NCBI RefSeq assembly: GCF_003293845.1
Contig: NZ_QLST01000005.1
Span: forward strand, 1 to 64,000
DNA from: Flavobacterium tibetense
GTDB lineage: Bacteria > Bacteroidota > Bacteroidia > Flavobacteriales > Flavobacteriaceae
DNA length: 64,000 nt
Reading direction: 5' to 3'
Shown here: piece after piece, positions 45,928 through 51,645 of the stretch
Position numbering within the stretch: the first letter of the stretch is position 1
Layout: each line of letters opens with the position of its first letter
Notes under the pieces: model-generated
Database searches by the model: none
Seen by the model: only the letters and a program-made list of their open reading frames with translations
What the model was told of the DNA's origin: nothing
Translations under genes and position numbers: made by a program

Positions 45928-46488
45928 TTGAAAGTAATTATCTTAACCCCAATGGAAATTGAGCGAGAAAAAGTACTAAACGCTTTAGCTCGAATTCCGA
46001 ATTTGAATCATACGTACGAAGTAATCGTTTCTGGAATTGGTCGTGAAAGTACGGCTAAGGCGATGATGCAAATGCCACCACACGATATTTGTGTGTTAAT
46101 GGGTTTTGCTGCTGTGGTAGGAAAAGAAGCCCATTTACCCGATTATTTGCATTTAGGAAAACCTATCGAAATTACCAATGCTTCGCTATACGGTTACGAA
46201 GGCGGCTTGTTTGAAAACGGAAAACCCATCATTACCGAAAAGCCAAAATTAAATTTACCTTGTTTGTCTTCCTTAACTTCCGACAAGTTTGTAAGAACAA
46301 CCGATTTAGCCGAAAAAACGGTTGTAAATATGGAAGATTACACCTTTAAATTTTTGAAAAAACCACAAGATTTTATCGTGCGCATCATCTCCGATTTTTT
46401 ACCTCACGAAACCGAAATTGACTTTTTTGAAGAAGTGAAAAGTATTGATTTTTTGGAAGGTGTGATGGCGGTGGAAGGTGTGAAGTAA
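45928..46488 (+). CDS. short nucleoside phosphorylase/nucleosidase-like protein
   Basis: This 186-aa protein begins at TTG with a first strand MKVIILTPMEIEREKVLNAL, reminiscent of MTA/SAH or futalosine nucleosidases. It is followed by YEVIVSGIGRESTAKAMM and VLMGFAAVV, which match the family's core. The C-terminal half has VVNMEDYTFKFL, with the position of the substrate-binding Met-Glu pair. It is 40-50 residues shorter than usual nucleosidases, so activity is uncertain. Methionine or nucleoside salvage with the neighbouring aminotransferase is only a guess. Confidence 0.65.
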   Translation: MKVIILTPMEIEREKVLNALARIPNLNHTYEVIVSGIGRESTAKAMMQMPPHDICVLMGFAAVVGKEAHLPDYLHLGKPIEITNASLYGYEGGLFENGKPIITEKPKLNLPCLSSLTSDKFVRTTDLAEKTVVNMEDYTFKFLKKPQDFIVRIISDFLPHETEIDFFEEVKSIDFLEGVMAVEGVK

Positions 46489-46498
46489 ATTCTAATTT

Positions 46499-46506
46499 TA
46501 TTTTTG
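46499..46506 (+). promoter_or_regulatory. promoter -7 element TATTTTTG for the XRE-nuclease/helicase pair
   Basis: This is an exact TAnnTTTG match, 50 nt before the ATG at 46557. It immediately precedes the candidate operator at 46508-46534. Confidence 0.55.
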
Positions 46507-46507
46507 T

Positions 46508-46534
46508 AGACAATACTCCGTTGTTTAGTAGTCT
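46508..46534 (+). promoter_or_regulatory. possible operator AGAC-N19-GTCT
   Basis: AGAC (46508-46511) and GTCT (46531-46534) are inverted around 19 nt, at the expected transcription start. Controller proteins of restriction-modification systems often bind GACT/AGTC-type half-sites near their own promoter. The half-sites here are only 4 bp, so this is tentative. Confidence 0.3.
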
Positions 46535-46556
46535 TCATTTTTTAAACTTTGAGGCT

Positions 46557-46763
46557 ATGAATATTAAGCAGAAATTTGGTCTCAAAGTAAAAGAATTGCG
46601 AAAAGCAAAAAATTTGTCGCAAGAAAGATTAGCTAATTTAGCTGAAATTGACAGAACATATTTGCCTACAATAGAAAAAGGAGAAAGAAATGTTTCCATT
46701 GAAGTAGTTGAAAAATTAGCCAAAGCTCTTGATGTAAAAATTAAAGATTTATTCGATGAATAG
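46557..46763 (+). CDS. XRE-family small regulator, controller-protein-like
   Basis: This 68-aa protein is essentially one helix-turn-helix domain: KVKELRKAKNLSQERLANLAEIDRTYLPTIEKGERNVSIEVVEKLAKALDV. The RTYLPTIEKGERNVS stretch resembles C proteins that time restriction-modification gene expression. An in-frame ATG at 46521 exists, but ATG 46557 gives the standard domain start. The stop lies 8 nt inside the next gene, so the two are translationally linked. It probably represses or times the nuclease/helicase gene. Confidence 0.88.
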   Translation: MNIKQKFGLKVKELRKAKNLSQERLANLAEIDRTYLPTIEKGERNVSIEVVEKLAKALDVKIKDLFDE

Positions 46764-48735
46764 GTCGTACTACTCAAATTCTATTGAAGGATTTATCAAA
46801 GAGGATGTTAATTCAATTTACGGAAAAATTTCTGGAAATTACGATTTGAATAAGTTGACTATTCAGCAATCAAATGCGTGGAAAAAGCAAATTGAAATTT
46901 TAAAACAATCTATTTCTACATTTAGTGGAAAGATTTATTTTGAGTTTACAATCCCAAGAATGGGAAAAAGAGTTGATAATATACTAATTATTGATAATTG
47001 TATTTTTGTTTTAGAATTTAAAATTGGTTCTGATATTTATGATAAATCAGCTAAAGAACAAGCTTTTGATTATGGATTAGACTTGAATAATTTTCATGAA
47101 GGAAGTCATAATAAAAATTTAATTCCAATTTTAATTGCCGATAAAGCTCCTTCAGTTATAAATACATATTCAAAAAGTTTGGATTGCTTGTATCAGACTA
47201 TTTTTGCAAATTCTTCTAATCTTAAGGATATAATTAATAACACTTTACAAAATTTGAAATCTTTTGAGAAGATAGATATAAAGTTTTGGGAAGAATCTAT
47301 TTACAAGCCAACTCCAACAATTATTGAAGCTGCTACGGCTCTATATAAAAAACATAATGTTTCAGAAATTTCCAGAAGTGATTCTGGTGCTGAAAATTTA
47401 TCAGTAACTTCAAATTGTATTTCAGAAATAATTGATTTTTCAAAAAGGAATAATAAAAAATCGATTTGTTTCATTACAGGAGTTCCAGGAGCAGGAAAAA
47501 CATTAGCAGGTTTAAATATCGCGAATATTCGTTCAAATTATATAGAGGAAGAACATGCTGTTTTTCTATCAGGAAATGGACCATTGGTTGATGTTCTAAG
47601 AGAAGCTTTGGCAAGAGACAAAGTGAAAACTTCGAAGGAAAATGGAGAATATTTATCAAAAGATAATGCTAAATCTCAAGTTAAATCATTTATACAAAAT
47701 ATCCATCATTTTAGAGATGCATCTTTAAGAGACGACAAAGCGCCAATTGAAAAAGTAACAATATTCGATGAAGCTCAAAGAGCTTGGACAAAGGAACAAG
47801 CATCGAGTTTTATGAAAAGAAATAAAGGGAATTCAGAGTTTAATAAATCTGAACCTGAGTTTTTAATTGAAGTTATGGACAGGCATAAAGATTGGTGTAC
47901 AATTGTCTGTTTGATTGGAGGAGGACAAGAAATAAATACTGGTGAAGCTGGTTTAGAAGAATGGATAAGACCTTTTGAAGATAAATTCAAAGATTGGGAT
48001 ATTTATTATTCATCAAAAATAATAGAAGATGATAATTATATAAAGGACAATAATGCCTTGGAAATTTTAAAAAGTAAATGTGCGGTAAGAAAAGATGAAC
48101 TTCATTTATCTGTTTCCTTGCGTTCATTTAGAAGCGCTCAATTATCAAGTTTTATTCAAGAAATTATAAATAATGATATTATAAAGGCAAATAATATTTA
48201 TCAAGAGTTTATTAAAAAAGAGTATCCAATTAGAATAACTCGAGATTTAGAAAAAGCAAAAAACTGGCTCAAAAAACAAGCAAAAGGGACAGAAAGAACA
48301 GGAATTATTGCGTCGTCAGGAGCTATTCGATTAAGACCTTTTGGATTAAATGTAAAAGCTAAAATTGATGCGCCAATTTGGTTTTTAAATGAGAAGGAAG
48401 ATATTCGTTCATCATACTTCTTGGAAGAAGTTGCGACAGAATTTGATATTCAAGGATTAGAATTAGATTGGACTTGTGTTGCTTGGGATGGTGATTTGTT
48501 TTATAATAATAATCAATGGAATTATAAAAAATTTACAGGAACAACTTGGAAGAATTGTAGTAATACTGAAAGAATAAAATATTTGATTAATTCTTATAGG
48601 GTTTTATTAACAAGAGCAAGGCAAGGCATGATTATTTATATTCCGAACGGGAATAATGAAGATTCAACAAGGCCGGACTTTATGTATGATGGTACATTTG
48701 ATTTTTTTATTAAAATCGGAATTAAAGAAATTTAG
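46756..48735 (+). CDS. PD-(D/E)xK-like nuclease plus DUF2075 SF1 helicase protein
   Basis: This is a 659-aa protein. Residues 59-91 contain a PD-(D/E)xK-like pattern: Glu63, Arg72-x-Asp74, and Glu87-x-Lys89 in VLEFKIG. The DUF2075 helicase core follows. Walker A GVPGAGKT is near 241-248 and Walker B VTIFDEAQRAW near 334-344. Motif III-like CLIGGGQEI, SLRSFRSAQ near 455, motif V-like FDIQGLELDWTCVAWDGDL near 560 and motif VI-like YRVLLTRARQGM near 616 complete it. A nuclease joined to an SF1 helicase under an XRE regulator suggests phage defence. The layout resembles what I recall of the staphylococcal nuclease-helicase immunity protein Nhi. The AT-rich codon use differs from the ribosomal genes. 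Function is inferred only. Confidence 0.82.
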   Translation: MNRSYYSNSIEGFIKEDVNSIYGKISGNYDLNKLTIQQSNAWKKQIEILKQSISTFSGKIYFEFTIPRMGKRVDNILIIDNCIFVLEFKIGSDIYDKSAKEQAFDYGLDLNNFHEGSHNKNLIPILIADKAPSVINTYSKSLDCLYQTIFANSSNLKDIINNTLQNLKSFEKIDIKFWEESIYKPTPTIIEAATALYKKHNVSEISRSDSGAENLSVTSNCISEIIDFSKRNNKKSICFITGVPGAGKTLAGLNIANIRSNYIEEEHAVFLSGNGPLVDVLREALARDKVKTSKENGEYLSKDNAKSQVKSFIQNIHHFRDASLRDDKAPIEKVTIFDEAQRAWTKEQASSFMKRNKGNSEFNKSEPEFLIEVMDRHKDWCTIVCLIGGGQEINTGEAGLEEWIRPFEDKFKDWDIYYSSKIIEDDNYIKDNNALEILKSKCAVRKDELHLSVSLRSFRSAQLSSFIQEIINNDIIKANNIYQEFIKKEYPIRITRDLEKAKNWLKKQAKGTERTGIIASSGAIRLRPFGLNVKAKIDAPIWFLNEKEDIRSSYFLEEVATEFDIQGLELDWTCVAWDGDLFYNNNQWNYKKFTGTTWKNCSNTERIKYLINSYRVLLTRARQGMIIYIPNGNNEDSTRPDFMYDGTFDFFIKIGIKEI

Positions 48736-48738
48736 ATA

Positions 48739-48768
48739 AAAAACACCAACATTTCTGCTGGTGTTTTA
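48739..48768 (+). terminator. terminator of the nuclease/helicase gene
   Basis: AAAACACCA (48740-48748) pairs with TGGTGTTTT (48759-48767) around a 10-nt loop, directly after the stop codon at 48735. The T run is part of the 3' arm. Confidence 0.75.
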
Positions 48769-48777
48769 TACGGTATT

Positions 48778-48810
48778 AAACCTGACAGGTTTCAAAAACC
48801 TGTCAGGTTT
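48778..48810. repeat. nested palindrome, left copy (REP-like, beside the RAYT gene)
   Basis: AAACCTGACAGGTTT, the spacer CAA and AAACCTGTCAGGTTT form a perfect 15-bp inverted repeat. Each arm is itself a palindrome centred on one base (AAACCTG-A-CAGGTTT). An identical copy with the same orientation is at 49461-49493. Confidence 0.92.
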
Positions 48811-48826
48811 AAATCGTTAACATAAA

Positions 48827-49402
48827 TTAAATTCCCAATAAATTTTCAATTGCGAAATAGTTTCCTTTTTCTTGATGTACATATTTGAAATTTTCTAAAT
48901 CTCCAAAACATGCAATAACTTCTGTTCTCTTAATTTTCGTTGGTTTATCAGATAAACAAGAAATGTAAGAACTCCAAGGATATTCTATTGGGTGTGAACA
49001 AATTTTGTGATGAACAGGATTATTGTGTATGTAAGCAATTACGTTTTGTAAATAGTTGTCAAAGTTAACTTGTTTCCTCCTAAATGGCCTTTCAAACAAG
49101 GCACCATGTCGGTTATATTTCTTATTGAAAGCTTTTGTATAGGCATTGAAAAGATTTGAAAAAGATTGTGAAGGAGTAATTTTCTTTTCTAAATTAGTTT
49201 CAGAAGTTTCTTTTATTCGTACTATAAAATGGAAATGATTTTTCATTAAACACCATGCAAAAGTTTCTGCAATTGGTTCAATGTGTAATTCGAAAAGTTT
49301 AAGGAAATGTTCGTAGTTGTCTTTTTCTTTAAATAACGTTGTACTATTTATTCCACGATTGTAAATGTGGTAATAGTTACCATGTTGTAAGGCTTGTATC
49401 AT
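48827..49402 (-). CDS. REP-associated tyrosine transposase (Y1/HUH family)
   Basis: This 191-aa single-strand DNA transposase of the RAYT branch of IS200/IS605 has GNYYHIYNRGINSTTLFKEKDNYEHFL near the N-terminus. The HUH motif is in LMKNHFHFIVRI near residue 55. RHGALFERPFRRKQV follows, and the catalytic Tyr is in NYLQNVIAYIHNNPVHHKI near 115-125. It appears full length and undamaged. It sits between two identical palindromes, the expected substrate of such enzymes. RAYTs are usually domesticated single-copy genes. A TACATTTG box lies 24 nt upstream. Confidence 0.93.
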   Translation of the reverse strand: MIQALQHGNYYHIYNRGINSTTLFKEKDNYEHFLKLFELHIEPIAETFAWCLMKNHFHFIVRIKETSETNLEKKITPSQSFSNLFNAYTKAFNKKYNRHGALFERPFRRKQVNFDNYLQNVIAYIHNNPVHHKICSHPIEYPWSSYISCLSDKPTKIKRTEVIACFGDLENFKYVHQEKGNYFAIENLLGI

Positions 49403-49515: not shown

Positions 49516-51645
49516 TTACTCCTCCAATAAAACCTCTAAAATCGTAATCGCTGCATCACTAATTTTAGTTCCAGGACCAAAAACCGCTACAGCTCCAGCG
49601 TCGAATAAGAATTGGTAGTCTTGTGCAGGAATTACACCGCCAACAATTACCATAATGTCTTCTCTTCCGTATTTTTTTAGTTCTTCAATGACTTGTGGTA
49701 CTAAGGTTTTGTGTCCCGCCGCTAAAGAAGAAACGCCTAAAATGTGTACGTCGTTTTCAACCGCTTGTTTGGCTGCTTCTTGTGGCGTTTGGAATAACGG
49801 ACCAATGTCTACGTCAAAACCTACATCGGCATAACCTGTAGCTACTACTTTTGCTCCACGATCGTGACCGTCTTGTCCCATTTTCGCAATCATAATACGA
49901 GGACGACGACCTTCTTTCTTCGCGAAAGCGTCGGCTAATTGTTTTGCTTTTTCAAAACTTTCGTCGTTTTTAATTTCTTTACTATACACGCCGCTAAAAC
50001 TTCTAATTTGTGCTTTATATCTTCCAAAAACTACTTCTAAAGCATCACTAATTTCGCCTAATGTAGCTCTGTTTCGTGCTGCTTCTACTGCTAAAGATAG
50101 TAAATTTTCACCACCATTTTTAGCGCTTTCTGTTAATTTTGCTAAACATTCGGCAACTTTAGTGTTGTCACGAGTCGCTTTAATTTGTTCTAAACGTTCA
50201 ATTTGTTGTTTGCGCACCATTTGGTTGTCTACATCCAAAATATGTAACGGATCTTCTTTTTCCAAACGGTATTTATTCACCCCAACAATAATATCTTGAC
50301 TGCTATCGATACGCGCTTGTTTACGCGCAGCAGCTTCTTCAATTCTTAGTTTTGGAATTCCAGCTTCAATGGCTTTGGTCATGCCACCTAATTCTTCTAC
50401 TTCTTCAATTAATGCCCAAGCTTTTTCAGCAATTTCAGCCGTTAAACTTTCTACATAATAACTTCCTGCCCAAGGATCCACCGTTTTACAAATTTTGGTT
50501 TCTTCTTGTAAAAAGATTTGGGTATTACGAGCAATTCGTGCTGAGAAATCAGTTGGTAAAGCAATGGCTTCATCTAATGCATTCGTGTGTAACGATTGCG
50601 TTCCTCCAAAGGCTGCTGCGGCTGCTTCAATAGCAGTTCGAGCCACGTTATTAAAAGGATCTTGCTCGGTTAAACTCCAACCCGAAGTTTGGCAATGCGT
50701 TCTTAAAGCCAATGATTTTTCGTCTTTTGGGTTGAATTGTTTCAATAATTTTGCCCAAAGCATACGACCGGCACGCATTTTGGCAATTTCCATAAAATGA
50801 TTCATTCCAATCGCCCAGAAAAACGAAAGGCGAGGAGCAAAGGTATCAATATCCATTCCAGCCGCTAAACCAGTGCGAATGTATTCCAAACCATCTGCTA
50901 AAGTGTATGCTAATTCAATATCAGCAGTAGCTCCCGCTTCTTGCATGTGGTAACCCGAAATCGAAATCGAGTTGAATTTTGGCATGTTTTTACTCGTATA
51001 TTCGAAAATATCCGCAATAATTTTCATCGAAGGTGTTGGTGGATAAATGTAGGTATTTCGCACCATGAATTCCTTCAAAATGTCATTCTGAATCGTTCCT
51101 GATAATAGGTTAGGAGCAACGCCTTGTTCTTCCGCAGCTACGATGTAAAATGCCATAATAGGTAAAACCGCACCATTCATAGTCATTGAAACCGACATTT
51201 CACCTAACGGAATTTGGTCGAAAAGTACTTTCATATCTTCCACGGAGTCAATCGCAACTCCGGCTTTTCCAACATCACCCACCACTCGTTCGTGGTCAGA
51301 ATCGTAGCCTCTGTGTGTTGCTAAATCGAAAGCAACTGATAATCCTTTTTGTCCAGCCGCTAAGTTTCTTCTGTAAAAAGCGTTACTTTCTTCCGCAGTT
51401 GAAAATCCCGCATACTGACGGATAGTCCAAGGTCGACGAACGTACATGGTAGCGTAAGGTCCGCGTAAATTTGGTGCAAAACCAGCTCCAAAACCAAGAT
51501 GTTCTAAATTGGAAATGTCTTCTTTAGTGTAAGTTGGTTTTACTTCAATTCCTTCTGCAGTTGTAAACTTTTGTTCCAAGTTTAACGTTTCAGGTTTCAA
51601 GTTTTTGGATTTCTCCAAAGTTAAATGTTGTATATCTTTTCTCAT
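49516..51645 (-). CDS. mutB: methylmalonyl-CoA mutase large (alpha) subunit
   Basis: This 709-aa adenosylcobalamin enzyme interconverts succinyl-CoA and methylmalonyl-CoA. The TIM-barrel substrate domain covers about 30-560 ([78 protein letters not shown]). The B12-binding domain is at the C-terminus with [11 protein letters not shown] and [14 protein letters not shown]. Near the N-terminus, [10 protein letters not shown] is encoded by a copy of the intergenic GTTTCAGGTTTCAAG repeat. It is last gene of the udk-divIC-mutA-lipoprotein-mutB run. No cobalamin riboswitch was recognised. Confidence 0.97.

Follow-up and report, generated by a model that had tools for sequence, protein, structure and literature searches.

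What is a regulator of the restriction-modification (R-M) type doing in front of a predicted DNA-cutting enzyme that has no methylase beside it? The question is raised by a gene pair in Flavobacterium tibetense (assembly GCF_003293845.1, contig NZ_QLST01000005.1), of which the first 64,000 nucleotides (nt) of the forward strand were analysed and are referred to here as the window. A regulator of the XRE type, 68 amino acids (aa) long, is encoded at 46557..46763 (+), and a 659-aa protein combining a predicted nuclease with a helicase follows at 46756..48735 (+). Both genes are present with the 8-nt overlap described in an earlier, sequence-only reading of this DNA, and the overlap is kept in 17 of 17 Flavobacterium-type loci (L001-L016 and L080; the prefixes L and G denote loci and genomes, respectively). 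The answer that we consider likely is that the pair is a phage-defence nuclease-helicase, free of a methylase, whose expression is timed by an activator-repressor switch of the restriction style. The probable defence role had already been proposed, and as a prediction it is supported by the analysis reported here.

The regulator, which had been singled out as making the pair a distinct arrangement, was indeed judged to be its more interesting part. It matched HTH_3 in Pfam (E 1e-14), its top three PADLOC models were all 'Control_protein' families (best 1.6e-22), and its top matches in the PDB were C.AhdI (1.6e-14) and C.BclI (1.4e-13), which bears out the controller-like character first ascribed to it. 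As judged from its sequence, it is a controller (C) protein of the R-M type. Helix-turn-helix (HTH) models of HipB type and of PezA also matched, below their cut-offs, and a tree of the regulators (68 columns) gave no resolved branching.

Relatives of the regulator at E<=1e-9 numbered 56, distributed over 48 of 150 genomes of the genus. Thirty of the best regulator loci were read, the window included, with 26 of the 56 matches outside the reading. The next same-strand gene was a clear restriction or defence gene in 28 of the 29 nearest homologues read, while the 29th, a NOV_C gene ahead of a 50-aa remnant of a restriction enzyme, is arguable. Besides this NOV_C gene, the next genes comprised 17 DNA methyltransferases, four members of PDC-S41 (the family of the window's enzyme; one of them, in G462, looks frameshifted), three restriction endonucleases of Alw26I, BglII and SwaI type, two McrB-like genes, one PbeA and one DndF. 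The methyltransferases were called by tblastn with the enzyme of genome G023 (E<=1e-8), PF00145 being checked directly on L141, and the best model for that of L142 was DISARM DrmMII; the two AAA_5 ATPases were designated McrB-like by judgement. The regulator of the Alw26I-type unit is 71% identical to that of the window. Within one genus, a single regulator family precedes R-M, McrB-like, Dnd/Pbe-type and PDC-S41 systems. As a separate observation, L163 (2929-5735) and L164 (2578-5381) hold a McrB-like ATPase and a 454- or 452-aa protein under the same C operator type; this second protein had no Pfam match and contains a PD...D-A-K stretch that appears nuclease-like by eye.

The enzyme matched the PADLOC candidate family PDC-S41 (PDLC05014) over its full length, residues 1-659 aligning with profile positions 1-653 of 657 (E 4.2e-289). 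The 'S' in this label presumably stands for a single-gene candidate, and a literature search found no paper naming the family. PDC-S41 is widespread, as 8000 of 8000 candidates scored, and so at least that many proteins, match it at E<=1e-5; a contig search returned 322 relatives, mainly from Bacteroidota and also from Campylobacterota, Pseudomonadota, Planctomycetota and others, the best 80 of which were studied. The superfamily 1 (SF1) helicase recognised at the outset was confirmed by a strong match to PF09848 (formerly DUF2075, now 'SLFN-g3_helicase'; Pfam E 1e-82) at residues 235-630 (47458..48645, +), with Walker A at 241-249, DEAQ at 338-341 and RVLLTRARQG at 615-624. The helicase also matches UvrD, Dna2, Pif1 and RecD2.

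Residues 1-200 (46756..47355, +) are predicted to form a PD-(D/E)XK nuclease, with the D-x(n)-E-x-K residues in a predicted core fold of this type. Their AlphaFold2 (AF2) model, with a predicted local distance difference test (pLDDT) score of 91.2, has a helix-strand-strand-strand-helix-strand core and structural matches to Can2, McrC, EndoMS and Hjc, with AddAB also among the nuclease rows, so that the predicted fold is that of a nuclease. Foldseek with residues 1-200 alone gave nothing at E<=0.001 (best 1.3e-3); the nuclease call is based on VIA-align, secondary structure and invariant residues, and the fold comparison covers only the families in the fold lists. The residues E63 (46942-46944), D74 (46975-46977), E87 (47014-47016) and K89 (47020-47022), together with Q102 (47059-47061) and Y106 (47071-47073), all on the + strand, are invariant in an 80-row alignment of the window and 79 relatives at 28-85% identity. 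The first four lie exactly where they had been placed, and are likewise invariant in 78 of 78 rows (window and 77 homologues). The union of a nuclease-like N-terminus with an SF1 helicase in one protein is supported by predicted fold and profile.

In agreement with the initial description, no DNA methyltransferase was found among the genes beside the pair in the window; the cognate methyltransferase of a type II R-M system is, as far as sequence can tell, missing. The genome as a whole yielded 0 matches to PF00145 and 0 to PF01555 at E<=0.001 (PF02086 was not searched), and its N6_Mtase matches, one at 5e-110, lie elsewhere. Consequently, nothing found here marks self for PDC-S41, and self would be spared through recognition of the substrate, be it DNA structure, ends or phage proteins, and not through marking. 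A different defence therefore seems to have taken over a timing circuit of restriction enzymes.

A C-box-like candidate operator, GACAATACTCCGTTGTTTAGTAGTC (clade consensus GACTATACTCCGTTGTTTTATAGTC), was identified as a conserved block at 46509..46533 (+), the predicted binding site of the XRE protein. The AGAC-N19-GTCT repeat earlier taken for a possible operator is real, its standing now being that of the outer ends of this block. Across 17 loci (window, L002-L016 and L080, L001 being excluded as a near-copy), mean pairwise identity per ten bases was 0.81-0.95 from -50 to -21 before the XRE start and 0.77-0.78 in the last 20 bases; farther upstream it was 0.47-0.59 at -51 to -70 and 0.31-0.38 at -71 to -130. 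The operator occurs once in the 2.74-Mb genome of the window, allowing up to 3 mismatches, and had 0 exact matches in the viral contigs searched. Published C operators, as described in passages of PMC4824078, consist of a pair of nearly palindromic sites, GACT-tat-AGTC, whose spacer is centred on GT, and a passage of PMC4321490 gives the consensus GACTTATAGTC with a spacing of about 4 bp. The best two-site match lies at about -49/-34, with the sites 15 bp apart, in 14 of 18 Flavobacterium-type loci. When compared with dinucleotide shuffles, standing out being defined as 15 or fewer of 300, nine of these 18 loci reached the threshold (L007 with 0; L002, L006 and L011 with 1; L080 with 5; L003 and L013 with 7; L015 with 14; L016 with 15), and the independent loci L037 and L026 gave counts of 0 and 2.

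The operator's TCCGTTG core also precedes the C genes of the Alw26I-, BglII- and SwaI-type restriction enzymes and two McrB-like genes, and the window shares with the Alw26I-type locus an identical run of 17 bases (TCCGTTGTTTAGTAGTC) within the operator. Visual inspection showed other operator sequences in the Dnd and Pbe units and in 16 of the 17 methyltransferase units, L155 being the sole methyltransferase unit with the CCGTTG type. The direct likeness of the window operator to the Esp1396I right-site oligonucleotide was also considered and set aside as weak. A likely promoter of Bacteroidota type (46521..46551, +) is conserved in 18 aligned loci, with TTG at 46521-46523 and, after 20 nt, AAACTTTG at 46544-46551; the assignment uses what we take to be the Bacteroidota promoter consensus. 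The TATTTTTG box previously attributed to the pair could not be upheld, being common, among the 18 loci, only to the window and its near-copy L001, and the conserved promoter-like element is the AAnnTTTG block right before the ATG. The transcript of the pair, judging from this layout, likely starts at or next to the ATG and would be leaderless; leaderless C transcripts are described in the portion of PMC4824078 consulted.

The operator bears directly on a different account, according to which the XRE protein is a simple repressor or antitoxin-like partner, and PDC-S41 a toxin-like or abortive nuclease kept off until infection. Two overlapping genes, the sub-threshold HipB-type and PezA matches, and a different XRE class and operator before PDC-S41 in marine Flavobacteriaceae would all suit it. 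However, the best matches of the regulator are R-M C proteins, the prevailing two-site match is placed as in C operators, and an HTH partner is lacking altogether in 41 of the 71 homologues labelled, so that this account seems unlikely to us. The labels were mapped onto a tree of 75 homologues, in which the 18 members with the 68-aa regulator form a single clade and HTH partners show 8 changes over the 71 rows. As the 41 rows do without an HTH partner, the enzyme can evidently do without a regulator, and as the partners appear in separate places of the tree, regulators were probably recruited more than once.

The preferred interpretation, a C-timed defence enzyme, also draws on where the pair occurs. 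The gene does not behave as a core gene, which the sequence-only reading had said would refute a defence role if it did: PDC-S41 was found in 1 of 60 near genomes, the window's own, and in 23 of 395 genomes of the phylum, own included. It is accessory and probably mobile. Upstream, the insertion site is bounded by a chromosomal gene at 45928..46488 (+; 0 Pfam families), whose product we take to be futalosine-hydrolase-like and which has orthologues in 8 of 80 other genomes of the genus; downstream it is bounded by a methylmalonyl-CoA mutase gene at 49516..51645 (-), 97% identical to the L001 copy, MM_CoA_mutase being named by Pfam in 4 of 81 scanned neighbours. In G478 the site is empty: the upstream gene, a hairpin and the mutase gene are consecutive, and the pair, which in the window sits between that upstream gene and that hairpin, is absent. 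In G023 the same interval is taken up by genes of the opposite strand, which encode a regulator of C type (54% identity to the window XRE), a cytosine methyltransferase matching PF00145 at 1.6e-88 and a protein in which an NgoFVII-type restriction domain was recognised (1.8e-7); in G012 and G032 there are different genes. Empty in one genome, with the pair in the window and an R-M system in another, a single site is thus alternately occupied in sister genomes.

The hairpin, at 48737..48770 (+), is a 15-nt inverted repeat, 87% complementary, located 3' of the PDC-S41 gene. It is a probable terminator, although a strict terminator scan called none. It had been regarded as dedicated to the pair, which does not hold, as the same hairpin also occurs where the pair is absent: in G478, with its empty site, it immediately follows the upstream gene, and it lies at the equivalent place in G023, the relative carrying the R-M system. 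Beyond it, paired 17-nt palindromic repeats (AACCTGACAGGTTT type) at 48776-48813 adjoin a Y1_Tnp-like gene at 48827-49402, which scored 22.5 bits, slightly under the Pfam cut-off of 23; the stretch looks like a repetitive extragenic palindromic (REP) element plus a transposase-like gene, and was unmatched at the empty site of G478.

Of 81 neighbours of Flavobacterium-type copies, a single one, a tetratricopeptide repeat (TPR) protein, had a PADLOC match at E<=1e-10, and Pfam assigned mainly housekeeping families, with ParE_toxin in 2; a defence-island argument for these copies was accordingly dropped. Elsewhere, the 136 neighbours at 34 further loci gave matches to 23 PADLOC families (PDC-S07 8, RTasPolA 5, mad3 2, HNH 2 and others once each, e.g. 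REase_I, PDC-S13 and Vsr). The RTasPolA matches are, by judgement, ordinary DNA polymerase I, and the association of PDC-S41 with defence genes at these loci is modest. One relative, 28% identical, is found on a plasmid, where its neighbours are McrC-type, AAA-ATPase, HNH-endonuclease and DNA-methyltransferase genes. In marine Flavobacteriaceae (L040, L047, L049, L051, L066, L074, L077 and L079), a convergent gene encoding about 126-143 aa lies downstream of PDC-S41; the eight PDC-S07 and five RTasPolA matches probably represent this gene and DNA polymerase I at a second fixed chromosomal site. In all of these loci except L066, an unrelated operator, a long inverted repeat TACTTATTGTATGTTGA ... 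GCATACAATAAGTA with small variations, precedes XRE partners of 89-92 aa. Further relatives include a full-length PDC-S41, 48% identical, at 692-2644 of L124 (MT836127.1), a 12.7-kb unannotated 'Bacteriophage sp.' contig from human faeces, and Lutibacter proteins of 808 and 807 aa (L044 and L067), where a 988-aa gene ends two bases upstream, a possible two-gene variant.

Several of these observations weigh against a C-timed defence enzyme. In the window, L001, L012 and L013 the best two-site match is placed otherwise, the window operator being degenerate; in the shuffle test the window (235 of 300), L001 (234), L005 (112) and L014 (103) do not stand out; and the neighbours at 17 related loci are housekeeping genes. 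The degenerate operator, together with the R-M system found at the same site in G023, could also be read as the trace of a type II R-M system whose methylase was lost and whose endonuclease was replaced by PDC-S41 by chance, its regulation now dead. The regulator, the overlap and the operator block are nevertheless kept in 17 of 17 Flavobacterium-type loci, and we consider such a remnant very improbable. The housekeeping neighbours, in turn, would fit a nuclease-helicase of DNA repair or recombination, similar to Dna2 or AddAB and with no role in defence, as would the UvrD, Dna2, Pif1 and RecD2 matches of the helicase and the EndoMS and AddAB rows of the nuclease. Against a repair enzyme stand the patchy distribution, the site shared with an R-M system in a sister genome, the restriction genes linked to the regulator family in 28 of 29 read loci, and the McrC-type, HNH-endonuclease and DNA-methyltransferase genes adjoining the plasmid relative; it would be a rather surprising outcome.

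If the pair is a defence system under C control, its operation may be outlined by analogy with R-M systems. While scarce, C turns on its own promoter and the nuclease transcribed with it, and once abundant it represses them, so that the nuclease is delayed in a newly entered cell (excerpts of PMC12707154 and PMC3874152); the switch can be bistable and dependent on copy number (PMC3695507, as excerpted). Here, after cell entry, the C protein would occupy the operator's left half and raise transcription of its own gene and of the nuclease-helicase gene. At a higher level it would fill the right half, between the likely -33 TTG and the -7 AAACTTTG, and shut transcription off, so that the switch would keep a potentially self-damaging enzyme low first and afterwards at a fixed level. 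The helicase may then be loaded onto, or move along, DNA that phage replication has rendered abnormal, an abnormality perhaps recognised as in Nhi or Hachiman, and the RecB-like PD-(D/E)XK domain would cut it.

What is new is the regulatory unit, in which a controller circuit of R-M type precedes a methylase-free nuclease-helicase, an arrangement that McrB-like units share; in a limited literature search, control by a C protein was not seen described for PDC-S41, McrB-like, Dnd or Pbe units. C proteins are usually explained as holding the restriction enzyme back until protection of the genome by the methylase is in place, and the pair raises the issue of what purpose the switch serves where no methylase needs waiting for. 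Apoptotic mutual exclusion occurs between R-M systems, and it is conceivable, though we would sooner expect otherwise, that the C protein and C-box form a portable switch for DNA-cutting defences, a resident PDC-S41 unit prematurely activating an incoming R-M system with the same operator and so joining in such exclusion. If true, premature switch-on would follow from the one operator type found across PDC-S41, McrB-like and some restriction units. The pair hence raises the question of whether defence systems in one cell communicate through shared C operators, and it provides a candidate mechanism for PDC-S41.

Among known systems, the PDC-S41 family itself is the closest by full-length membership, the unit described here differing by its C-type regulator and operator. 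Nhi of Staphylococcus epidermidis (SERP2475) likewise joins nuclease and helicase in one protein, a likeness that for the window rests on predicted fold and profile. The consulted sections of PMC11811056 and PMC12904381 present Nhi as a single-protein nuclease-helicase defence without guide or methylase, and mention no such regulator. The kinship with Nhi suggested at first was not borne out: in a comparison of profiles only, the enzyme did not match the PADLOC Nhi model (PDLC02372) at E<=1, and it is to PDC-S41, not to Nhi, that its sequence assigns it. A search of the whole genome G000 with the Nhi model returned nothing at E<=0.001, and six of eight scanned PDC-S41 relatives touch the model, weakly and in the ATPase region only. 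Of 148 genomes searched, 122 gave matches; as those listed are partial, mostly in the ATPase region, a true Nhi is not demonstrated in them. Human Schlafen proteins of group III (SLFN11 and SLFN14) are the top Foldseek matches for the whole model and share the Pfam helicase name, but the N-terminus of the window protein is predicted to be PD-(D/E)XK and not the Schlafen RNase core, for which Pfam gave no match at E<=1; it is not classed as a Schlafen.

With C-controlled type II R-M systems (PvuII, AhdI, Esp1396I; C-type gene of L114) the pair has in common the C family, a putative C-box-like layout and likely leaderless co-transcription with the nuclease; it differs in having no adjoining methyltransferase and in driving a nuclease-helicase instead of a sequence-specific endonuclease. 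A C gene is also known with a Type I system in Mycoplasma, according to the accessible text of PMC12707154. The McrB-like units L135 and L139 have regulators 91% and 84% identical to that of the window, a nearly identical operator and, by eye, no recognised methylase among the adjoining open reading frames listed, and they differ from the pair in what the shared switch drives, namely an AAA_5 ATPase followed by a 454- or 452-aa protein that Pfam does not match.
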